Source: a virus
Strand: one strand, 5' to 3'
DNA length: 23,682 bases
IMG/VR virus record: IMGVR_UViG_3300044733_003528
Span: 1 to 23,682 of that record
Position numbers and translations under genes: made by a program. The notes under the pieces are model-generated. The model was not told the origin of the DNA, did not search any database, and saw only the letters and a list, made by a program, of their open reading frames with translations. Of the stretch, positions 4,308 through 14,909 are shown piece by piece; the stretch's first letter is position 1, and every line of letters begins with the position of its first letter.

Positions 4308-6218
4308 TTAAAAAGATATTTCACTTCCAGATTCATCTCTATACGGAAGCCATTGATTAGATATTTCAGCCTGTGTTATATTATCTGGGTTGTGGGAAGA
4401 CTTGGACCTCTCTGCTTCATATTTATCACAAAAAACTTTTCTTGTAATCGGGTCAATAAACCTTTTAGTTTTCCAATCTAAATATAAATCGAAGTGGCCA
4501 AGTTGACCTCCAGTTCTTTTTCTTTTAACCTTCTGTATATATATCTCAACCTCACAACTGTTTTTATCTTCGTGAAATCTGGGTCGATAGTAAGATATTA
4601 TTTGGTCAACCTTATTACCCCACATTGCTCCGCCAGCTAAATCATACATATCAGCAACAGGAAGAGACTTGTCTTCTCGATAGCTCGGGCTTTTAGGGTG
4701 AGCAATAATATTGTAACAAATGCCATTAAGAAGCGCAAATCTTTTTATATCCTTTAATATACTCGACAAATACTGGTCTTCTCTTTGATAAGATTTCTGC
4801 ATTGAGTCTAATTGATTAAATGGATCAATCATAACACCATCTAATCCCTTTTTCAAAATCAAATAACGAAACTTATCGTGTACAGACTCAATATCGTGTT
4901 CGTTTTCTGGATAGACAAAGAAAATGTGATTACCAATAAACTTACAAGCCTCCGTATATTCTTCTTCAGTTAAATTAGAGGTCCACTTGCCAGTATACAT
5001 TTCAACTAAGTCGTCATAAAAATCATTTGCAGGATAATTCTCTGGACTAAATATCGCCCACTTCCAGCCATCCCATATACTCTTTGTAAGCATTAATTGT
5101 AGCATAAAGGTTGACTTACCCGCATTTGCATATCCAGTACATAAATTTATATCCCCTTTTTTCCATCTAAAAAAGTTGTCCATTTCGCCAAAATTGGTTG
5201 GCGGAGCGACCTGAACACCCTTCTTAAAGTTTTCCAACATCGAAGAAAATATGTCTTCAACATAAAAAATCCCGTCAACTGGAATTTCCTGCGAACTCAA
5301 TACAAGCGATTTAAGGGCCTCTTTTCCAAAGTGGCACAATACCTCATTAAAGTCTTTTGGTGCGAAATTTGGGCCGTTTCCGTGCGTCTGGTGCGATTGT
5401 AGGATTTCCCATCTGACAGTTCGGCACTTTTCCACGCCAAGTCGGCGGATTAGCTCGTCCCGAAGCGCCTGACCCGGCAGGTCGTTGTCGGTCGCAATTA
5501 CAAATTCTTCAATAGTGCTTAAATAGTCCGAACTGTTGTCGAGGTACTCAAGTCGGTTGTTTCCAGAAACCGCTCCGTTCGGAACCGAGATTACCGCAAA
5601 TCGACCGAGTTCGTGTTCGACGATTTCCCCGTCCTCGTTGCAAACCGCATCGTAGTCCTGACCAAATCCAGCTTCGTATGCCGAAAGCGCATCGATTTCA
5701 CCTTCGACGATGATGGCACACCTGCGGCCCTCAAGCGATTGCATTCCGAAAAAAATCAATTCAGCATCCTTGATGAGCTTGAAATTTTTCTTTCCGTCCC
5801 GGTATTTCGCATTGACAATTTCGTTGTTTCGGATGTAGGGGAAGACGATGCAGCGTTCCTTCTGCTGTGTCTGAGGCATCCACTCTTCCTTGCCGTGAAT
5901 GAAAAACTTTTTAAGCGTTGTTTCGCTAATTCCCCGACCATCAAAATATTTTTTTACCCTGTCATTCAGCTCGATGCTCTTGAGCATATCCTGACTTGGT
6001 CTTTCAAATTTTTTCAATGTGCTCTTGGGAACAAACGATCTTACGTTTCCCATCCAACCGCAGTTGTGGCAGTTGTAGTCGCCCTGCGAAATGTTCACCG
6101 ACAAGCAAGGGTCTGTTTTTTTCTTCCGACCCGCTGAGCATTGCGGGCAGGTTGTTTTTTCTTGTCCGCTGCGTTTGCGAAGTCTGATGCCGAGTTTTGT
6201 GAGTTGGTCAAAATACAT
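4308..6218 (-). CDS. Bifunctional DNA primase-helicase, T7 gp4-like
   Basis: A 636-residue protein with full-length architecture. The zinc ribbon has CPQC (C24, C27) and CHNC (C50, C53). The TOPRIM domain shows IIVEGEIDALSA (catalytic E172), ATDNDLPGQ (D244, D246) and a later KDFNE. A RecA-like hexameric helicase domain has Walker A TGYANAGKST (361-370), Walker B VMIDPFNQLD (462-471) and the sensor IIAHPKS near 504-510, as in T7 gp4. It unwinds DNA and makes primers at the phage fork. It is the largest gene of the leftward replication operon. The start codon lies 11 bases after the stop of the DUF4373 gene. Expected motifs are all present; nothing suggests truncation. Confidence 0.92.
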   Translation of the reverse strand: MYFDQLTKLGIRLRKRSGQEKTTCPQCSAGRKKKTDPCLSVNISQGDYNCHNCGWMGNVRSFVPKSTLKKFERPSQDMLKSIELNDRVKKYFDGRGISETTLKKFFIHGKEEWMPQTQQKERCIVFPYIRNNEIVNAKYRDGKKNFKLIKDAELIFFGMQSLEGRRCAIIVEGEIDALSAYEAGFGQDYDAVCNEDGEIVEHELGRFAVISVPNGAVSGNNRLEYLDNSSDYLSTIEEFVIATDNDLPGQALRDELIRRLGVEKCRTVRWEILQSHQTHGNGPNFAPKDFNEVLCHFGKEALKSLVLSSQEIPVDGIFYVEDIFSSMLENFKKGVQVAPPTNFGEMDNFFRWKKGDINLCTGYANAGKSTFMLQLMLTKSIWDGWKWAIFSPENYPANDFYDDLVEMYTGKWTSNLTEEEYTEACKFIGNHIFFVYPENEHDIESVHDKFRYLILKKGLDGVMIDPFNQLDSMQKSYQREDQYLSSILKDIKRFALLNGICYNIIAHPKSPSYREDKSLPVADMYDLAGGAMWGNKVDQIISYYRPRFHEDKNSCEVEIYIQKVKRKRTGGQLGHFDLYLDWKTKRFIDPITRKVFCDKYEAERSKSSHNPDNITQAEISNQWLPYRDESGSEISF

Positions 6219-7009: not shown

Positions 7010-7759
7010 TTAGATCACCGAAACACCCCTTTCTGATACCACTTCTGAAGCCTCCTGATTAGCCTTTTGTATAGCATATCTTATATCCTTCTTTTCCATA
7101 TAATAGAAGGCTAATGCAGCTAAGAATGTGTCTCCTGCTCCTGATACATCGCTTGTTATTTTCTTTATGCCGGGGAAGTCTTGATTGTCATAGCGCGCAC
7201 CATTTCCACCTCGAGTAATGATAACTTTTTCCTTATATAGCATTGCTATTGGTTTGTTAAGCTCGTATTCCGTTTCATTAAGCTTGATAAAATCATAGTA
7301 ATCAAGTATGCCACTATTGAGATCCTTTTTTGAGTCAAGAAAAGCGATGCAATCATCTTTTTTCTCTTGGCAAATTTTACACAAATCCGACTTTGATAAA
7401 AACCCCTTATCGTAATCAGAAACTAATATGCAGTCTGCACTTTTAATAAGCTTCAGGAGGTAGCTTGTAAATTCTATTGGCTGAGCTGTATCGTTTTCGT
7501 CAATACGAATTAAATAATGATTTGATTTTTCTTCCACATATCTTGTCTTCTTAATGTCGCTGCTAGAGAAGTGGCCCACAATAGATGCCTTTTTCTCAAT
7601 AAGAGAAAACAAGTTGTTGTATACGTTTTGCGCCATACCTCCATTTTCAACCGTTTTTAGCGGCTTAAATATTGGCACAGGGGCTTCTGGGCTGAGCCTT
7701 GTAACTTCCCCGTACACAAAAACATCCTTACATTTTTCTCCAATGACCAAGAAGTTCAT
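7010..7759 (-). CDS. PfkB-family sugar kinase, heptose-7-phosphate kinase-like
   Basis: A 249-residue ribokinase-fold enzyme resembling the kinase domain of HldE/RfaE. Matching segments are YGEVTRLSPEAPVPIFK (16-32), NGGMAQNVYNNL (39-50), VSDYDKGFL (113-121), LNETEYE (160-166) and the catalytic VSGAGDTF (205-212, base D210). HldE kinase phosphorylates D-glycero-D-manno-heptose 7-phosphate at C1. The protein is somewhat shorter than the roughly 310-residue bacterial domain. It stands alone, with the adenylyltransferase half encoded separately at 8540-8941. Its start overlaps the HAD gene by ATGA (7756-7759). Family sure; the exact sugar substrate is inferred. Confidence 0.82.
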   Translation of the reverse strand: MNFLVIGEKCKDVFVYGEVTRLSPEAPVPIFKPLKTVENGGMAQNVYNNLFSLIEKKASIVGHFSSSDIKKTRYVEEKSNHYLIRIDENDTAQPIEFTSYLLKLIKSADCILVSDYDKGFLSKSDLCKICQEKKDDCIAFLDSKKDLNSGILDYYDFIKLNETEYELNKPIAMLYKEKVIITRGGNGARYDNQDFPGIKKITSDVSGAGDTFLAALAFYYMEKKDIRYAIQKANQEASEVVSERGVSVI

Positions 7760-8046
7760 AGCTCTTCTATTCTTTTAGTTTTGTCACAAATTAGTAGGTC
7801 ATAAGCAAGCTTATGGTTCATTATTACCCCGTGATATTTACACCCCCAGTCATTCAACTGTTCTACGGTTAATTCCGTATAATCTATGCCACTACTTCTT
7901 CCTCTAGCTGTGTAGTAGATTATTGTGTTACCCTCTTCATAGAGCTTGTTTATTTTTTCTATGTTATCGGGAAGTGGCGACGCTTTGTCATATTTTCTCT
8001 CAGCGCTCTCGCAAATTGTTCCGTCGATGTCTACCAGTATTTTCAT
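7756..8046 (-). CDS. Small HAD-like protein, possible sugar phosphatase
   Basis: A 96-residue protein with HAD motif I near the start (ILVDIDGTIC, nucleophile D7 and D9) and motif II (TIIYYTARGR, T46). After SGIDYTELTVEQLNDWGCKY it ends in a short segment with IMNHKLAYDLLICD, which may supply motif III lysine and motif IV aspartate. This is the compact HAD type found beside capsule and LPS sugar genes. In the ADP-heptose route a HAD enzyme (GmhB) removes the C7 phosphate between the kinase and adenylyltransferase steps; this protein is much shorter than GmhB (about 180 residues), so that role is only possible. It overlaps both neighbours. Confidence 0.7.
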   Translation of the reverse strand: MKILVDIDGTICESAERKYDKASPLPDNIEKINKLYEEGNTIIYYTARGRSSGIDYTELTVEQLNDWGCKYHGVIMNHKLAYDLLICDKTKRIEEL

Positions 8047-8197
8047 TGTTTAGTGTTTTTAATAGCGTATCAGCAATCTCTACCGCCTCTTTGCAAACGT
8101 CTTCTATTGTCTCAGCGTTACTCGAAGCAATTAGCATAGATAAAACCTCAATAGCAATATGCTCCCTAATGGTTATATCTTTTAGTTTCCTTTCCAT
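8000..8197 (-). CDS. Small helical phage protein, 65 aa
   Basis: A 65-residue protein, mostly two helices: LKDITIREHIAIEVLSMLIA and EDVCKEAVEIADTLLKTL. This A-x-E-A-x-x-I-A-D-x-L-L pattern is frequent in short uncharacterised phage proteins. Its last 47 bases overlap the HAD gene and its start overlaps the cupin gene by 16 bases. It is probably a real passenger inside the sugar cassette, although the last ten residues are low-complexity and imposed by the overlap. Function unknown. Confidence 0.6.
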   Translation of the reverse strand: MERKLKDITIREHIAIEVLSMLIASSNAETIEDVCKEAVEIADTLLKTLNNENTGRHRRNNLRER

Positions 8198-8547
8198 ACT
8201 CGGTAGCTGTCTGAGTCAAAGTGTTGGGTTGATATCTCAAAGATTTCGCCGTCCTGAAGAGCCTTTAGTTGGTGAGGCATACCGATAGGTATTGTTACAA
8301 CGTCTTGCTCGTAAAGTATCTTCGTGTGCTTTTCACCCTTTTCGGTGTCAATCCAAGAAAATTCAAACTCACCTTTGTTGACGTACCAAGTCTCTTGCTT
8401 AATAATATGATAGTGCATACTAAATTGGCACCCGCTATTGAAGACAAGTATTTTGCCGCAATAAAGTTCGTTATTAACTATAACCGTCTCTCCACCCCAA
8501 CCTTTGGGAACGTGGCAGCACTCGGTACAGATTGGCTGTTTATCCAT
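8182..8547 (-). CDS. Cupin protein, sugar isomerase or epimerase-like
   Basis: A 121-residue single-domain cupin. GWGGETVIVNNELYCGKIL leads into the first cupin motif SMHYHIIKQETWYVNKGEFE (metal-type HxH and E) and the second, VVTIPIGMPHQLKAL (H). EISTQHFDSDSYR closes the barrel in the manner of mannose-6-phosphate isomerase type II and related nucleotide-sugar cupins. It likely acts on a phosphorylated or nucleotide-linked sugar. It lies between the adenylyltransferase gene (overlap 8 bases) and the 65-residue gene (overlap 16 bases). It could replace a missing isomerase or epimerase step (GmhA or HldD), neither of which is seen here. Cupin call firm; reaction inferred. Confidence 0.78.
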   Translation of the reverse strand: MDKQPICTECCHVPKGWGGETVIVNNELYCGKILVFNSGCQFSMHYHIIKQETWYVNKGEFEFSWIDTEKGEKHTKILYEQDVVTIPIGMPHQLKALQDGEIFEISTQHFDSDSYRVWKGN

Positions 8548-8941
8548 TTTTAATCTTGTTAATTATTTCGGTCGTTGAATGAAGTGACTTTGGGAAAAAG
8601 ACAATCCGCTTGACGCTTTCAGCCCCAATAATAGTGCGGTCCTTATATTCATCGCCTATCACCATAAAGTCGGGCTTAAGCTTTTTCATCGTTAATCGTA
8701 AGTCCCAGTCTGTCTCAAAGATGTAAACTTTTTTAATAAAAGAAAAGCAGGTTAGCATATCAGCCCGAAACCCTTCATCAAAGATAGGTCGGCTTGGGCC
8801 TTTAGACTTGCTTACTCTTAGGTCTGAGTCGATGCCAACGTGGAGTTGACCAAGTGTGGCGGCATAACGCAGTAGCTCAAAGTGTCCGGGGTGGATAATG
8901 TCAAAGCATCCGTTAACCCAGACAATTTTTTTGCGAGTCAT
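8540..8941 (-). CDS. RfaE-domain-II nucleotidyltransferase, heptose-1-phosphate adenylyltransferase-like
   Basis: A 133-residue cytidylyltransferase-fold enzyme. KIVWVNGCFDIIHPGHFELL (5-24) contains the HxGH nucleotide-binding motif (HPGH 17-20). FRADMLTCFSFIKKVYIF and DFMVIGDEYKDRTIIGAE match the RfaE domain II core, and LHSTTEIINKI near the end corresponds to its S-T-T-x-I-I-x-K-I signature. The family transfers AMP to heptose-1-phosphate; TagD-type glycerol-3-phosphate cytidylyltransferases are the main alternative. With the kinase gene it makes a split HldE (HldA plus HldC style). The start overlaps the stop of the ribbon-helix-helix gene (8938-8941), indicating coupling. Confidence 0.82.
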   Translation of the reverse strand: MTRKKIVWVNGCFDIIHPGHFELLRYAATLGQLHVGIDSDLRVSKSKGPSRPIFDEGFRADMLTCFSFIKKVYIFETDWDLRLTMKKLKPDFMVIGDEYKDRTIIGAESVKRIVFFPKSLHSTTEIINKIKNG

Positions 8942-9833: not shown

Positions 9834-10058
9834 ATGGACAAACAAGAAAACGCATTTAACCCTCCCACGCCTACCGAGGAAGAGATTTCTTGGGTTCGCC
9901 TACTCGCGACTGGGGAGAAGGCTAAGGGTGTGGCTGAAAAGTTGGGCCTTAACAAGAACACATTTGCTTACAGGCTCCAGCTTTTGAGGGCTAAGTTTAA
10001 TTGCAAAAACACAACCCAGTTGGTATCTTATTTTATAACAAACAAATACATTGACTAA
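9834..10058 (+). CDS. LuxR/GerE-type HTH regulator, 74 aa
   Basis: A 74-residue protein that is almost only a GerE-type helix-turn-helix. After MDKQENAFNPPTPTEEE comes ISWVRLLATGEKAKGVAEKL, GLNKNTFAYRLQLLRAKFNC and KNTTQLVSYF. The E-E-x-x-x-x-x-L-L-A-x-G, A-x-x-L-G-L-x-x-x-T, L-x-K-x-N and T-Q-L-V pattern is the LuxR DNA-binding domain with no receiver or ligand domain. I start at 9834 because an upstream in-frame ATG would run antisense through the HNH gene and across its promoter. It sits at the divergence of leftward early genes and rightward late genes, so it is a good candidate for the switch regulator. Fold confident; targets unknown. Confidence 0.82.
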   Translation: MDKQENAFNPPTPTEEEISWVRLLATGEKAKGVAEKLGLNKNTFAYRLQLLRAKFNCKNTTQLVSYFITNKYID

Positions 10059-10257: not shown

Positions 10258-10273
10258 AATGAGTAAAACTCAA

Positions 10274-10534
10274 TTAGGCGTTAGCCAAAGTCTGTACTTG
10301 AGCAACGGTTCTGTCAGTAAAGAACTTCGTAGAGATTTGGTTCAAACCTTGAGGAAGGACTTCGATGACAGCGTTACATTGTACTTGGGCTTGACCACGA
10401 ACTTCGGTAGTGGGGTAAACGTGAATTGGGCTTTGAGAGGCAAACAAGTTAGCTTGTCCACCAGCAGCCGCAATGTCAGTCTGTCCACCGGGCGCGTCTA
10501 TACCATAGACTTGCACCAAGAAAAGATTAGCCAT
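10274..10534 (-). CDS. Isolated minus-strand hypothetical protein, 86 aa
   Basis: An 86-residue, neutral, Gln/Ala-rich protein beginning MANLFLVQVYG. It has segments VYPTTEVRGQAQVQCNAVIE and TDRTVAQVQTLANA. The composition resembles small secreted or virion-associated beta-rich proteins rather than DNA-binding ones, but there is no signal peptide. I prefer this strand over the overlapping plus-strand frame. It is flanked by a strong terminator on its 3' side, a TATCTTTG box on its strand (10600-10593) and a dyad in its leader (10566-10583), and it has an AT-rich lead (TTGTTAAAAA) before the ATG. It interrupts an otherwise plus-strand stretch, so it is likely a separately regulated gene. Function unknown. 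Confidence 0.62.
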   Translation of the reverse strand: MANLFLVQVYGIDAPGGQTDIAAAGGQANLFASQSPIHVYPTTEVRGQAQVQCNAVIEVLPQGLNQISTKFFTDRTVAQVQTLANA

Positions 10535-10554
10535 TTTTTAACAATTTAAGCTGT

Positions 10555-10592: not shown

Positions 10593-10600
10593 CAAAGATA
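10593..10600 (-). promoter_or_regulatory. -7-like box for the isolated minus-strand gene
   Basis: Read on the minus strand this is TATCTTTG, matching TAnnTTTG. No convincing TTTG is found 19-21 bp further upstream. The box overlaps the ATG of the divergent glycosyltransferase gene, so the two genes would interfere with each other's expression. Confidence 0.35.
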
Positions 10601-11397
10601 TGACAAATGTCTTAAAATATAAAACATCTTCTCCGGCGGGCGACCTAATTAGTTTTCTGGCAGGGGTAAAGAAGATGTGGGAGGATACGGGGAAGAAGGG
10701 TGTTATTTATCAGCGCCTTGATATGCCGGGGGCGGGAACGGATACAAGTATACACCCCTACAAAAACAAATATGACGAGCCTGTTTGTATGAATAGGTAT
10801 ATGTATGAAATGCTATACCCCTTGATAATCTCCCAAGAGTATGTAGAGGATTATGTCGTGTATGCGGGGGAAGAGGCGGATGTCGATTTCGACCTTATCA
10901 GAATGGAGCGCTATACTAATCAGCCGAGGGGTAGCCTAAATCGCTGGTTCAATTACGTTTTCCCTCAAATGGCATCGGACCTGTCTATTCCGTGGCTCAC
11001 GATTTCCCCGAACAAAAACGACAAAATAATCATCAACTTTACCCAGCGATACCGAAACCACTTGATTAACTACTTCTTCTTAAAGGAATATCAAGATCGA
11101 ATTGTCTTTGCTGGATTAAAGGAAGAACGCGACCTGTTTTGTTCCACATGGAACCTTGATATTGAGCATCTTGAGGTATACGACTTTTATCAATTAGCTA
11201 CCCTAATTGCGGGCTGCAAGTTCTTTATGGGCAACCAAAGTTTTTGCTTTCAGGTAGCCGAGGCGGTCAAGGCTCCGCGTATCTTAGAGATATTTCCAAT
11301 GATGCCAAATGTTGTCCCATCAGGCAACTTTGCATACGACTTTTACCACCAAGGAAGCTTAGATTTTTACTTTCATAAACTACTAAAAAATGAATAG
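10600..11397 (+). CDS. Glycosyltransferase-like protein, GT9/GT-B type
   Basis: A 265-residue protein. The C-terminal half is laid out like heptosyltransferase-type GT-B enzymes: a strand (RIVFAGLKEERDLFC) followed by VYDFYQLATLIAGCKFFMGN and QSFCFQVAEAVKAPRILEIF, the GT9 segment that reads 'G-x-D-S-G-x-x-H-x-A-x-A-x-x-x-P'. Here the usual GxDSG aspartate is replaced by MGNQS, which weakens catalytic prediction. The N-terminal half is less recognisable (GDLISFLAGVKKMWEDTGKK, then GVIYQRLD). It opens the rightward block with the Nmad1 and fusion glycosyltransferase genes, and overlaps the next gene by 8 bases. Likely sugar transfer or sugar recognition. Confidence 0.65.
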   Translation: MTNVLKYKTSSPAGDLISFLAGVKKMWEDTGKKGVIYQRLDMPGAGTDTSIHPYKNKYDEPVCMNRYMYEMLYPLIISQEYVEDYVVYAGEEADVDFDLIRMERYTNQPRGSLNRWFNYVFPQMASDLSIPWLTISPNKNDKIIINFTQRYRNHLINYFFLKEYQDRIVFAGLKEERDLFCSTWNLDIEHLEVYDFYQLATLIAGCKFFMGNQSFCFQVAEAVKAPRILEIFPMMPNVVPSGNFAYDFYHQGSLDFYFHKLLKNE

Positions 11398-11713
11398 AGA
11401 AGAATTACTGCGTTTTGCTGGCGAGTTTTTTGGAACTTGCACTAAGATTATGCAAAACAAGAACAAAGACTACACGGGAGCAAAAGAGGTGGAAGACCCC
11501 TTTTCCAACTTCAGGGCGGTAGAAATGTTTGGCATTGAAACAGAAACAGGCTTCATAACCAGAATGACGGATAAGATGGCTCGCATAGGTTCTTTTGTTA
11601 AGCGGGGGGAACTTGCGGTAAAGGATGAAAGTGTGAAAGACACCCTTGTTGATCTGGCTAATTATGCGATGCTATTTGCCGCCTACTTGGAAAGTAAAAA
11701 GGTTGTAAAATGA
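11390..11713 (+). CDS. DUF1599 / nucleotide modification associated domain 1 protein
   Basis: A 107-residue, all-helical protein. NKNKDYTGAK (K26-D27-Y28), DPFSNFRAVEMFG (37-48), GFITRMTDKMARI (54-66) and VKDTLVDLANYAMLFAAYLE (82-101) match the DUF1599 (Nmad1) pattern, including the conserved D-K and D-T-x-x-D-L-x-N-Y. The family resembles MazG-like nucleotide pyrophosphohydrolases and has been linked by gene context to modified nucleotides in phages. It could cleave or sense an unusual dNTP. It lies between two glycosyltransferase genes and overlaps the next gene by ATGA. Family confident; activity unproven. Confidence 0.8.
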   Translation: MNREELLRFAGEFFGTCTKIMQNKNKDYTGAKEVEDPFSNFRAVEMFGIETETGFITRMTDKMARIGSFVKRGELAVKDESVKDTLVDLANYAMLFAAYLESKKVVK

Positions 11714-11931
11714 TACACGAATTTAAGACACCCCTACCAGTCCACACTCCTCACGGAGAAGGGGAGGCTATTTTGATTATTGACTACGGCATTGACGTAA
11801 ACACTATTTGGCTGATTAGACTTGAGGGCGGCTTAGTCAAGCACTATAATTCAGATGATATTCGCTTGTACGGAAACCCGATGCACGGGAAAGGATATGA
11901 TGTTCAAATACCTATAAACTGGAAACAATGA
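11710..11931 (+). CDS. Small phage protein of unknown function, 73 aa
   Basis: A 73-residue protein. VHTPHGEGEAILIIDYGIDVN leads to TIWLIRLEGGLVKHYNSDDI and RLYGNP. The pattern T-P-x-G-E-G, W-x-x-x-L-x-x-G-x-x-x-H-x-x-S-D-x-I-R-L is common in short phage proteins near modification or replication genes; it suggests a small SH3-like barrel. The start overlaps the previous stop (ATGA at 11710) and its stop overlaps the next start. Function unknown. Confidence 0.7.
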   Translation: MIHEFKTPLPVHTPHGEGEAILIIDYGIDVNTIWLIRLEGGLVKHYNSDDIRLYGNPMHGKGYDVQIPINWKQ

Positions 11932-12053
11932 GAAAAGTAAGAGCTAAACAGCTTAAAAGAATTGCAAAGTCGATAACCGCGTCTTCCCCAGAGATGATGA
12001 GAAAAGTATACCGCAGACTTAAAAAAACGTGGAGTGCGAACAAGTCTAAATAG
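11928..12053 (+). CDS. 41-residue strongly basic peptide
   Basis: The ATG at 11928 overlaps the previous stop (ATGA). The product is rich in Arg and Lys (MRKVRAKQLKRIAKSITASS, then PEMMRKVYRRLKKTWSANKS and K), without acidic clusters. It resembles short basic proteins of the type R-K-x-x-K, Y-R-R-L-K-K found in phage operons, perhaps DNA- or RNA-binding. It overlaps the following glycosyltransferase start by 20 bases. Confidence 0.6.
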   Translation: MRKVRAKQLKRIAKSITASSPEMMRKVYRRLKKTWSANKSK

Positions 12054-13470
12054 CGTAACCCTTATCTGTGTTGACTGTTCAAGACACGCAGAAGCATTGG
12101 CGGCTATACGAAAAAGTATGGCTGAGTGTGATTTTGCGGCGGTCAAGTTTTTGTCCGATAGGCAGTTTTATTTTGAGGGTATTGAGTCTGTAATTATACC
12201 TAAGATAAGCTCTAAGGAAGAGTACTCAGAGTTTATAATAAAGAAGCTAATCAAGTATTTTGATACAGAATTTGTATTGTTAATACAGCACGATGGGTAT
12301 ATACTGAACGGGAAGTCTTGGCTGCCAGAATTTTTGGATTACGACTACATTGGCGCTCCGTGGCTTTACTCTGACGGGAAAAATGTGGGTAATGGCGGTT
12401 TTTCTATCAGGTCCAAAAAGCTTCAAGATATATTGGCTGCAGATGATTTTATTTTTGCTTCGGATCCCGAAGATCAAGCAATAGGTCGCCTATACCGAGA
12501 TTATTTAATAAAAAAGTACTCGATTAAATTTCCTTCTGAGGACATTGCTGATAAGTTCGCCTACGAACTTCGCACACCTATTTACGACACATTCGGGTTT
12601 CACGGCAAGTTTCATAAACCCTTTCAAAAGACGGTCATTATCAAGCGAAGTGCGGCGATGGGTGATGTTATTTTGGTTGAACCCGTATTGCATTACTTTC
12701 ACAAAAAAGGCTATCGGGTGGTTATTGATACACCTGAGCAATTCTATATGCTTTTTGTGAGCCATTACTTCCCCGTACACCACATAAGCAAAATAGACGC
12801 AAGGCTTATTCCCGGAGCCGAACACTATAACCTTGATATGGCTTACGAGGCGTTGCCTAAACAGAACAGGTTGCTTAGTTACTATCAGTTTTGCGGCATC
12901 AAGGACGGGGAAATGAGAAACCCTAAATTATCGGTAGGTTTCCAACTAAGTCAATACACCAAATTATTTCCTAAATATTGCATCATACACCTTGAGGGCA
13001 TAAGACAATCTGGAAGGAATGTTTTTGGGGTGGACTGGGAAAATGTGGTAGCCAATATCCAAGCAAGGGGCTATTCGGTATTTCAAGTTGGTAAACGGAA
13101 TGTGCCTCTTATCAAGAACGCTATCTATCTTAACACAATGAACGAGAATTTTTTGTGTTATGCGGTGGGAAGTGCCGACTTCTTTATCGGAATAGATAGT
13201 GGGGTAAGCCACGTTGCGTCTGCCTTTAATGTGCCGTCAATCCTGTTTTTTGGCAATACCAACCCAGAGATTGTCCACGCCGACCTTTCTAATAAAGTTG
13301 TCCTGACAAAAGTTGTTTGCGAAAAGCCCCACTGCTGGCACGAACAAATCGGGGTGGAAAGTAGCGAGTGTTACATTGACCCACAACTTCCCCCTTGCGC
13401 AAAATACACCACAAAAGAAGTTTTAGAAGCAATAGATAAAATAATCCAAAATGAGAATAACAACCTATAA
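12034..13470 (+). CDS. Two-domain glycosyltransferase: DUF5672 fused to GT9 heptosyltransferase-like
   Basis: A 478-residue fusion. Residues 1-190 match DUF5672: FVLLIQHDGYILNGKSWL (80-97), FLDYDYIGAPW (100-110) and VGNGGFSIRSKKL (118-130), a GT-A-like domain. Residues 197-478 are GT9-like: VIIKRSAAMGDVILVEPVLH (201-220) and ADFFIGIDSGVSHVASAF with NVPSILFFGNTNPE (381-412). GT9 enzymes transfer heptose from ADP-heptose. A cysteine-rich tail (CEKPHCWHEQIGVESSECYI) may bind a metal. The start is GTG at 12034, overlapping the basic-peptide gene by 20 bases, because SVTLICVDC begins the domain a few residues later; no ATG fits before residue 29. It ends overlapping the methyltransferase gene by 20 bases. 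Confidence 0.83.
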   Translation: MRTSLNSVTLICVDCSRHAEALAAIRKSMAECDFAAVKFLSDRQFYFEGIESVIIPKISSKEEYSEFIIKKLIKYFDTEFVLLIQHDGYILNGKSWLPEFLDYDYIGAPWLYSDGKNVGNGGFSIRSKKLQDILAADDFIFASDPEDQAIGRLYRDYLIKKYSIKFPSEDIADKFAYELRTPIYDTFGFHGKFHKPFQKTVIIKRSAAMGDVILVEPVLHYFHKKGYRVVIDTPEQFYMLFVSHYFPVHHISKIDARLIPGAEHYNLDMAYEALPKQNRLLSYYQFCGIKDGEMRNPKLSVGFQLSQYTKLFPKYCIIHLEGIRQSGRNVFGVDWENVVANIQARGYSVFQVGKRNVPLIKNAIYLNTMNENFLCYAVGSADFFIGIDSGVSHVASAFNVPSILFFGNTNPEIVHADLSNKVVLTKVVCEKPHCWHEQIGVESSECYIDPQLPPCAKYTTKEVLEAIDKIIQNENNNL

Positions 13471-14053
13471 GCAAAACGGCGACTCAGCCCTGCAAGTTCA
13501 AGTCCTAAAAGCAATCTGTGGCCCAACCGAGGATAAAACCCTAATAGACCTTTGTTGCGGATCAGCCCCGCAAACAGGCCAAATAGCTTTTAAGCAAAAA
13601 ACCCACGTTGACGCCGTATATAGAGATCTTGTGGGTGGAGGGGAAATGATAGCAGACGATGTTATTGAATTTCTAAAAAAATCGTTTGGGCGTAAATGGG
13701 ATATATCCATTAGTACCGACTCTATAGAACATTTTAGAGATAAGGATGCTTGGGAATTCGTGGAACTTACCTCTAAGGTGGCGTCTAAAAATATATGGTT
13801 CACGCCTTTAGGAGAGTTCTGTATGACCTTAGACCCTAATAATAATGACCCGGACACCCACAAGTCGGAGTGGACACCTGAAAAGCTGGAGAAAGCTCAG
13901 CCGGGCTACTGGTCCTTTCTTGCCTTTCCAAGCTGGCACCCTACCCTTAGAAACTCAAAAGATGAAATACTCGGAGCCTTCTTTTTCTGGCACTCCAAGG
14001 ATCCAGACGCCGACTTTGCCCGTGTAAAATCTGAACTTAAAAATTTGGAATAA
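13451..14053 (+). CDS. Class I SAM-dependent methyltransferase
   Basis: A 200-residue protein. Motif I is LIDLCCGSAPQTGQI (31-45, D33 and G37) followed by HVDAVYRD (52-59) as the acidic strand-2 end. A post-motif DISISTDSIEHF (84-95) and NIWFTPLGE (113-121) complete a Rossmann-type core. The target could be DNA, protein or a sugar. No N-terminal DNA-recognition domain and no DPPY or NPPF motif is seen, so DNA N-methylation is less likely than small-molecule or sugar O-methylation. The start overlaps the fusion glycosyltransferase by 20 bases, suggesting it may methylate the same glycan. Confidence 0.78.
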   Translation: MRITTYKQNGDSALQVQVLKAICGPTEDKTLIDLCCGSAPQTGQIAFKQKTHVDAVYRDLVGGGEMIADDVIEFLKKSFGRKWDISISTDSIEHFRDKDAWEFVELTSKVASKNIWFTPLGEFCMTLDPNNNDPDTHKSEWTPEKLEKAQPGYWSFLAFPSWHPTLRNSKDEILGAFFFWHSKDPDADFARVKSELKNLE

Positions 14054-14059
14054 TTGTAG

Positions 14060-14067
14060 TATTTTTG
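14060..14067 (+). promoter_or_regulatory. -7-like box upstream of the small structural gene block
   Basis: TATTTTTG matches TAnnTTTG and lies 16 bases before the ATG at 14083. The nearest TTTG is at 14044-14047, too close for the usual spacing. It may give the packaging-region genes their own promoter. Confidence 0.35.
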
Positions 14068-14082
14068 GTAAAAGGTATCTTC

Positions 14083-14397
14083 ATGCCAAAGCTTAGATTT
14101 AAAACAGCCGCTTGGTCTCGCTCAGAAGGGAAGGCAAAATCGGGTGGCTTAAACGAAAAAGGCCGCGCTTCCTACAAGGCTGAAACAGGCGGAACCTTAA
14201 AGGCTCCTGTTAAGTCTGGAGACAACCCTCGCAGAGCTAGTTTCCTTGCTCGTATGGGCGGTATGCCCGGACCCGAATATAAAGACGGAAAACCAACCCG
14301 CCTGCTTCTTTCTCTAAGAGCGTGGGGCGCATCTTCTAAGGCTGACGCAAAAGCAAAAGCTAAAAATATTTCTGAACGCAATAAAAATAAAAAATAA
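14083..14397 (+). CDS. DUF6321-type small phage protein
   Basis: A 104-residue, very basic protein. I start at the ATG at 14083 rather than the TTG at 14065. Segments KSGGLNEKGRASYKAETGG, LKAPVKSGDNPRRASFLARM and KDGKPTRLLLSLRAWGA match the DUF6321 pattern (G-L-x-x-K-G-x-x-x-Y, R-R-x-S-F-x-A-R-M-x-G, G-x-P-T-R-x-x-L-x-L-R-x-W) seen in many phages. The function is unknown; its position shortly before the terminase suggests a role in packaging or the virion. It is the first of three small basic genes in a row. Confidence 0.68.
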   Translation: MPKLRFKTAAWSRSEGKAKSGGLNEKGRASYKAETGGTLKAPVKSGDNPRRASFLARMGGMPGPEYKDGKPTRLLLSLRAWGASSKADAKAKAKNISERNKNKK

Positions 14398-14398
14398 A

Positions 14399-14677
14399 AT
14401 GCCACAACAATTACCAAAGGACAGGCCTACCGCGGCTGACAAAAAAAGAGAGCAAGACCTAATCAACGCCTTGCAAAAAGAAGATTTTTACGGCAAGAAA
14501 AAAGCTCCTGCTAAGGCATCTCCAAAGCCAGTAGTAAAGGTTACAAAAGTTCAAATGAGCGTAGATAGACCTACCGCTGCGGACAAGAAAAGAGAAGACG
14601 ATCTCGTGAAGGCCCTTCAAAAGGAGAAGTTTTATGAAAGCCCCTTGATGCGTGCCGCCAAGGCAAAAAAGCAATAA
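14399..14677 (+). CDS. Small basic protein with an internal 24-residue duplication
   Basis: A 92-residue protein containing two copies of a 24-residue unit, at residues 8-31 and 56-79 (DNA 14420-14491 and 14564-14635). Each begins DRPTAADKKRE and ends in ALQKE-x-FY, with about 20 of 24 positions identical. A Lys/Pro/Val-rich linker (KKKAPAKASPKPVVKV) joins them. The DNA differs at many third-codon positions, so the duplication is old and kept by protein-level selection. The start follows the previous stop by one base. No known domain; perhaps a two-site binding protein. Confidence 0.65.
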   Translation: MPQQLPKDRPTAADKKREQDLINALQKEDFYGKKKAPAKASPKPVVKVTKVQMSVDRPTAADKKREDDLVKALQKEKFYESPLMRAAKAKKQ

Positions 14678-14678
14678 T

Positions 14679-14909
14679 ATGCCGCAAAAAGATAAAGCAT
14701 TTGAAAAGGAGCTATCTCAGCAACAGGTAGACAAACTTGCTGATAAGCTAATTAAGAATATGGCCGAAAAAAAGAGGCTTGAAAACCCTGTTATGGCCTC
14801 TATCGTTCGGTCTGCCGGAACTGAAAAACAGAAGGAGCTTCTTCGTAAAAAAGGAATTGATGGGCCAATATTTCGCGCCATCGTTCGTACTTCGACAAAA
14901 AAGAAGTAA
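14679..14909 (+). CDS. Small basic helical protein, 76 aa
   Basis: A 76-residue protein starting at the ATG at 14679, overlapping nothing; the upstream GTG in the same frame lies inside the previous gene. FEKELSQQQVDKLADKLIKN and ENPVMASIVRSAGTEKQKEL form helices, and the C-terminus is GIDGPIFRAIVRTSTKKK. The N-P-V-M-x-S-I and G-P-I-F-R-A-I repeats suggest a duplicated short motif, and a related ESPLMRAAKAKK ends the previous gene. These three neighbours may share ancestry. Function unknown. Confidence 0.6.
   Translation: MPQKDKAFEKELSQQQVDKLADKLIKNMAEKKRLENPVMASIVRSAGTEKQKELLRKKGIDGPIFRAIVRTSTKKK

Follow-up and report, generated by a model that had tools for sequence, protein, structure and literature searches.

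What do the glycosyltransferases in a short phage gene block build, and onto what would their product be placed? The question is raised by the virus record IMGVR_UViG_3300044733_003528, a 23.7-kb fragment of which we analyzed positions 1-23,682 (the window, i.e. the whole stretch). An original prediction had proposed a DNA or glycan hypermodification system at this locus, with phage DNA, host lipopolysaccharide (LPS) or virion proteins as possible targets. With moderate confidence, we now read the locus as a phage glycan assembly kit whose acceptor is most likely a virion protein. Glycan building is borne out by GT9 folds, a sugar cassette, swappable glycosyltransferase and methyltransferase genes and a fused operon, and of the two non-DNA targets the virion protein is favoured.

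The core of the locus is a tight rightward block from position 10600, comprising five plus-strand open reading frames (ORFs) whose coordinates were confirmed. The functional unit begins left of this block, as the minus-strand gene m86 belongs with it:

10274-10534, minus strand: m86, an 86-amino-acid protein divergent from GT9a and candidate acceptor (codon bias, family, adjacency, domain sharing)
10600-11397, plus strand: GT9a, a GT-B glycosyltransferase of 265 amino acids with a predicted, shortened GT9 (heptosyltransferase) fold (AlphaFold2 model, fold matches, conservation)
11390-11713, plus strand: DUF1599/Nmad1-like all-helical accessory protein (borderline PF07659 match, patchy in relatives)
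11710-11931, plus strand: 73-amino-acid protein, conserved between both glycosyltransferase genes in relatives
12034-13470, plus strand: bifunctional fusion glycosyltransferase of 478 amino acids, DUF5672 GT-A (residues ~58-181) plus GT9 (~200-470) (Pfam, motifs)
13451-14053, plus strand: class I S-adenosylmethionine (SAM) methyltransferase-like protein of 200 amino acids (profile comparison, relatives)

Neighbouring genes of the block share 8, 4 and 20 bases, and at one junction a gap of 102 bases separates them; of the several small proteins initially described, one (73 amino acids) lies within its coordinates. Relatives were gathered independently by terminase, GT9a, fusion glycosyltransferase, Nmad1, methyltransferase, cupin and m86. 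Because most of the block's ORFs are kept at the protein level in many related phage contigs, we regard the genes as genuine. Hydropathy analysis revealed no membrane protein in the locus. GT9a, the 73-amino-acid protein and the fusion glycosyltransferase recur directly upstream of terL in this phage group.

GT9a gave no match in Pfam, PHROG or NCBIfam, and sequence comparison with the PDB yielded chance matches alone; its class was settled by fold search. The AlphaFold2 model (predicted local distance difference test, pLDDT, 89) aligned with heptosyltransferases over ~228-230 residues using VIA, with Z scores of 16.6 for WaaF, 15.8 for WaaC and 14.4 for TibC. Listed by PDB entry, the Z scores were 16.6 for 1psw, 15.8 for 2h1h and 16.1 for 3tov, and the next unrelated group scored ~10. 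According to this model, GT9a has a complete but shortened GT9 fold across the whole protein, as predicted earlier, and it retains the N-terminal G-D motif. In the fusion glycosyltransferase both domains exceed their cut-offs (DUF5672, PF18922, 62.9 bits against 24.4; Glyco_transf_9, PF01075, 32.5 bits against 22), confirming the two-domain architecture. Within its GT9 half, G210 D211 and D388 S389 G390 are invariant, and the motif D-S-G-x-S-H aligns to D-T-G-L-S-H of WaaC.

The gene following the fusion glycosyltransferase occupies a variable slot. In the window, its product on its own has no Pfam family match; in profile comparison, hhalign against a Methyltransf_11 family gave a probability of 82% (E 1.1e-5, 94 columns), spanning motif I to the DxxxEH region. 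The 200-amino-acid protein is therefore probably a class I SAM methyltransferase; a match to KwaB (E 0.1) was taken as chance. In relatives, the slot is taken by the window's methyltransferase, by a Methyltransf_11 family member (alone, or accompanied by either another methyltransferase or GT2), by a GT17 gene that may or may not be fused to a methyltransferase, or by further glycosyltransferases. These methyltransferases, GT2 and GT17 proteins are unrelated and interchanged, while terL, portal and capsid remain conserved (the major capsid protein candidate at 92-98% among closer relatives). Recurring glycosyltransferases next to a changing third slot fit the assembly of a sugar chain with variable caps.

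A possible source of the sugar lies on the opposite strand. The nucleotide-sugar cassette proposed there proved to be real, with kinase, HAD phosphatase, cupin and nucleotidyltransferase recognized by family matches:

7010-7759, minus strand: PfkB sugar kinase, HldE kinase-domain-like (PF00294 47.7 bits; TIGR02198 E 2.3e-32)
7756-8046, minus strand: small HAD phosphatase, homologue of cyanophage T4-GC306 (homology)
8000-8197, minus strand: conserved cassette protein of 65 amino acids (46-59% identity in relatives)
8182-8547, minus strand: single-domain cupin, homologue of cyanophage T4-GC307 ('cysteine dioxygenase'; phrog_7851 E 2.9e-39)
8540-8941, minus strand: nucleotidyltransferase, HldE adenylyltransferase-domain-like (PF01467 52.7 bits; TIGR02199 E 5.9e-28; phrog_7878)

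Kinase and nucleotidyltransferase are relatives of the HldE domains. Both miss the NCBIfam cut-offs for HldE equivalogs (kinase 112 of 345 bits, nucleotidyltransferase 97.5 of 181.5 bits), and the sugar may differ from that of HldE. The cupin was found in 229 viral candidate stretches, and among the best 80 loci 39 carry the kinase and nucleotidyltransferase within 3 kb; cupin loci read out elsewhere lie inside larger sugar-gene sets (gene types assigned by eye). In two distant relatives (L126 and L131), tblastn placed the kinase, cupin and nucleotidyltransferase genes within the glycosyltransferase operon, in L126 between GT9a and the fusion glycosyltransferase, and this arrangement connects the window's glycosyltransferases with the cassette on its other strand. 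Moreover, one methyltransferase family occurs in 9/10 cassette-bearing contigs compared with 0/9 others (Fisher p 1.2e-4, uncorrected for the kinship of the contigs). As a separate observation, relative G010 (L082:7913-8683 and L082:2193-2954, both minus strand) carries a PAPS (3'-phosphoadenosine 5'-phosphosulfate)-reductase-like gene that interrupts its sugar cassette, and its early genes include a C5 cytosine DNA methylase.

We then asked which protein could receive the glycan, and the neighbour of GT9a, m86, is the leading candidate. Its relatives were sought by single-sequence scans. In nine relatives, differences in the minus frame fall on codon positions 1/2/3 in numbers of 323/145/935, with 768 synonymous and 318 non-synonymous differences; the plus-strand ORF 10259-10549 was rejected as an antisense shadow of m86. 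The protein belongs to a divergent family that accompanies the glycosyltransferase operon throughout. It lies less than 100 base pairs from GT9a in 27 of the 29 contigs with both genes (counted by hand; the exceptions are L209, at 683 base pairs, and G009), mostly in divergent orientation with one convergent exception (L121). In L215, GT9a has the reverse orientation and no longer neighbours the fusion glycosyltransferase, yet m86 still adjoins GT9a, and in L122-L124, which lack GT9a, it sits beside the fusion glycosyltransferase. A model built from short m86 proteins only finds the N-termini of fibre-like proteins of 618 and 982 amino acids whose genes are inserted directly behind GT9a (E 1e-26), and those of 319-324-amino-acid proteins encoded among the virion genes (E 2e-4 to 8e-4). 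Since its domain also forms the N-terminus of fibre-like and structural-module proteins, m86 is the best acceptor candidate, and together with its fibre-like relatives it leads the list by association only.

The observed enzyme classes, gene linkage and interchangeability suggest a pathway in which we infer what the sugar is, in which order the enzymes act and what accepts the chain. The cassette would phosphorylate, trim and nucleotidylate a heptose-like sugar phosphate, with the cupin probably isomerizing, epimerizing or otherwise modifying the sugar. Enzymes of the GT9 type would then transfer the heptose-like sugar, the DUF5672 GT-A domain would add a second sugar and the methyltransferase would cap the chain. 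The acceptor would most likely be a phage protein made concurrently, and the first to consider are m86 and the fibre-like proteins related to it. TibC, a protein O-heptosyltransferase, uses ADP-heptose to modify serine in its protein substrate (PMC4358343). Points in favour of protein glycosylation in the virion are the place of TibC among the best fold matches of GT9a and the m86 linkage. A more specific version, in which a cytosolic phage system heptosylates and O-methylates its own m86-family virion or fibre-attachment protein in a TibC-like manner, with swappable caps altering the sugar coat between relatives, is put forward tentatively.

Several observations weigh against assembly of a glycan on a virion protein. 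Neither a GmhA-type isomerase (SIS) nor an HldD-type epimerase was found among those genes of the window that were scanned; host enzymes or the cupin could serve for these steps. GT9a has N-Q-S where GT9 enzymes have D-S/T-G (in a weak motif alignment), for which reason its donor or mechanism may differ from theirs. Many relatives carry the glycosyltransferases without the sugar cassette, and those enzymes must therefore use another donor or a host sugar. L379 and L380 keep m86 without the glycosyltransferase operon or fusion glycosyltransferase, which implies that m86 has a function of its own; at 4763-6095 they carry two m86-family genes (268 and 77 amino acids) beside the terL block, a natural version lacking the glycosyltransferases. 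Finally, gene adjacency among related phages is non-independent evidence.

As a possible though doubtful alternative, the same enzymes might add heptose-like, methylated sugars to the host LPS core or surface glycan, thereby blocking superinfection or altering adsorption. WaaC and WaaF act on the LPS core at the cytoplasmic face, and action of this type needs no phage membrane protein. The best structural matches of GT9a are indeed WaaF and WaaC, and homologues of the cassette lie in islands of cyanophages and other large phages together with epimerases and other sugar genes. However, the glycosyltransferase genes share the late reading direction of terL, portal and capsid, the gene that constantly accompanies them encodes a virion-type domain and is no envelope gene, and the cassette regions of P-SSM2 and S-CAM1 are also flanked by tail fibre genes.

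It appears improbable that the cassette makes a diffusible nucleotide sugar acting as a decoy or defence signal, with the glycosyltransferase operon independently using host sugars. The opposite strands of cassette and glycosyltransferases in the window and the many relatives with glycosyltransferases only would agree with such a separation. Against it speak the cassette embedded in the operon of distant relatives, its co-occurrence with one methyltransferase of that operon and the glycan islands beside the cassette in unrelated phages.

The remaining proposal, that the glycosyltransferases glycosylate a modified base of phage DNA with Nmad1 acting on nucleotides, drew on the Nmad1 annotation, and there are well-known phages whose hydroxymethylated bases carry sugars. 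The Nmad1 gene is real, but its family match is marginal (PF07659, 24.8 bits, just below the cut-off of 25). Its best PHROG is 1485, a family without assigned function, and its phage homologues carry the DUF1599/Nmad1 annotation. The gene is present in 7/11 close relatives with glycosyltransferase genes (two of the seven being the window's own phage; table counted by reading) and in none of the more distant relatives. Elsewhere, homologues adjoin genes for a recombination nuclease, peptide deformylase, DNA polymerase, primase and deoxycytidine monophosphate deaminase, i.e. mostly DNA metabolism and not glycosyltransferases. Being dispensable here and found mostly among DNA-metabolism genes elsewhere, Nmad1 is no argument for glycosylated DNA; its role is probably a general one on nucleotides, and at this locus it looks like a passenger. 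The model of the protein shows four helices, and a role as MazG-like pyrophosphatase is not claimed: Foldseek and VIA matches are at helical-bundle background, with Z ~6.2-6.3 to 4qgp, DCTPP1, 1vmg and MazG equal to unrelated rows, and a sequence search of the PDB gave chance matches alone.

A DNA target would also need a pyrimidine hydroxymethylase or similar gene beyond the window, as the original prediction had pointed out. The thymidylate synthase/hydroxymethylase family PF00303 was found in 0/26 related records, none of which is known to be complete (the control was positive in 9 genomes). ThyX occurs in 2/17 related records, both from more distant relatives; TET/JBP (PF12851) was found in 0/17 records, an uninformative result as no positive control matched. 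When 37 ORFs without annotation from the early and end regions were compared with Pfam, no base hydroxylase emerged, their sole DNA-modifying gene being the C5 cytosine methylase of G010, and in Pfam the glycosyltransferases do not match T4-type DNA glucosyltransferases. As no record is known to be complete, the absence of base-modifying genes is unproven. With a dispensable Nmad1, glycosyltransferases that lack a Pfam match to those of T4 and no hydroxymethylase or base hydroxylase in these records, glycosylation of phage DNA is not borne out and seems very unlikely.

The 46-kb contig G001 from another sample equals the window at 100% protein identity from ~position 2676 onward. Terminase and portal match phrog_6681 and phrog_6547, respectively. 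Judged by terminase, phages of Flavobacterium and Cellulophaga are the closest isolates (~28%), and a large virion protein of relative G005 shows a weak, below cut-off match to the crAss muzzle domain. On these grounds, the host is probably a Bacteroidota bacterium. A contig binned to a Bacteroidetes metagenome-assembled genome bears a similar locus and terL. In the genome-contig scan, this bin was the sole source of a full-length fusion glycosyltransferase, and its terL marks the contig as a phage one; the remaining matches cover the DUF5672 half alone and are mostly from Betaproteobacteria. Against isolated phages, tblastn gave no match for GT9a, the methyltransferase or m86.

Some further features of these genomes were recorded. 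A small protein at ~9836-10058 (plus strand) with a LuxR/GerE-like helix-turn-helix (by eye), 43-53% conserved in relatives, sits where the early and late gene sets diverge and is a possible switch regulator. At 14065-14909 (plus strand), a DUF6321 protein (90-96% identity in relatives) is followed, just upstream of terL, by small lysine-rich proteins with a repeated DRPTAADKKREQDLINALQKEDFYG-type motif. The metallophosphoesterase of relative G007 (L075:8544-10292, minus strand) measures 582 amino acids, whereas that of G005 has 366; in the longer protein, a match to an intein splicing domain (E 1.5e-4, below cut-off) makes an intein insertion likely.

Few phages are known to have glycosylated virions, and predictions of the acceptor from sequence are rare. 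The constant pair of m86 and a GT9-type enzyme, combined with a swappable capping slot, offers a concrete enzyme-acceptor hypothesis. At the same time a false lead is removed, as Nmad1 beside glycosyltransferases need not signal glycosylated DNA. Our literature search retrieved no paper treating DUF5672 or DUF1599 in such a setting. The main parts all have relatives in other phages, and the combination with m86 and an exchangeable capping slot is new.

The closest counterpart of the cassette is T4-GC304-307 of marine cyanophages (P-SSM2 PSSM2_309-312; S-CAM1 SXBG_00217-00220; S-SM2), with four homologous genes at identities of 34-43% for the nucleotidyltransferase, 34-41% for the PfkB kinase, 40-54% for the HAD phosphatase and 43-49% for the cupin. 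In P-SSM2 and S-CAM1 it is flanked by tail fibre and glycan genes, and the cyanophage cassette has an additional nucleotide-sugar epimerase and other sugar genes. In contrast, the window has the 65-amino-acid protein and pairs its cassette with the DUF5672-GT9 fusion and m86. The T4-GC306 genes (NC_006883.2 PSSM2_311, NC_020837.1 SXBG_00218, NC_015279.1 SSM2_207 and SSM2_210) are labelled 'phosphoheptose isomerase', a name that is probably wrong since they are homologous to the HAD phosphatase of the window.

For the glycosyltransferases, the TibC/AAH autotransporter heptosyltransferases (PMC4358343) share the GT9-type fold, the ADP-heptose donor logic and a protein acceptor. GT9a is not known to have an iron finger or to form a dodecamer; it scores far below their NCBIfam cut-off, and its own acceptor is putative. 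WaaC and WaaF, the best structural matches of GT9a, share G-D and D-S-G-x-S-H with the fusion glycosyltransferase, which unlike them bears a GT-A domain, whereas GT9a is shorter by ~60-80 residues and carries N-Q-S in place of D-S/T-G. Lastly, A064R of chlorovirus PBCV-1 (PMC7019647) resembles the window locus, by description, in combining viral glycosyltransferase domains with a methyltransferase that caps a virion-protein glycan, but it unites three domains in one protein and acts on a rhamnose-containing, N-linked glycan of the major capsid protein.

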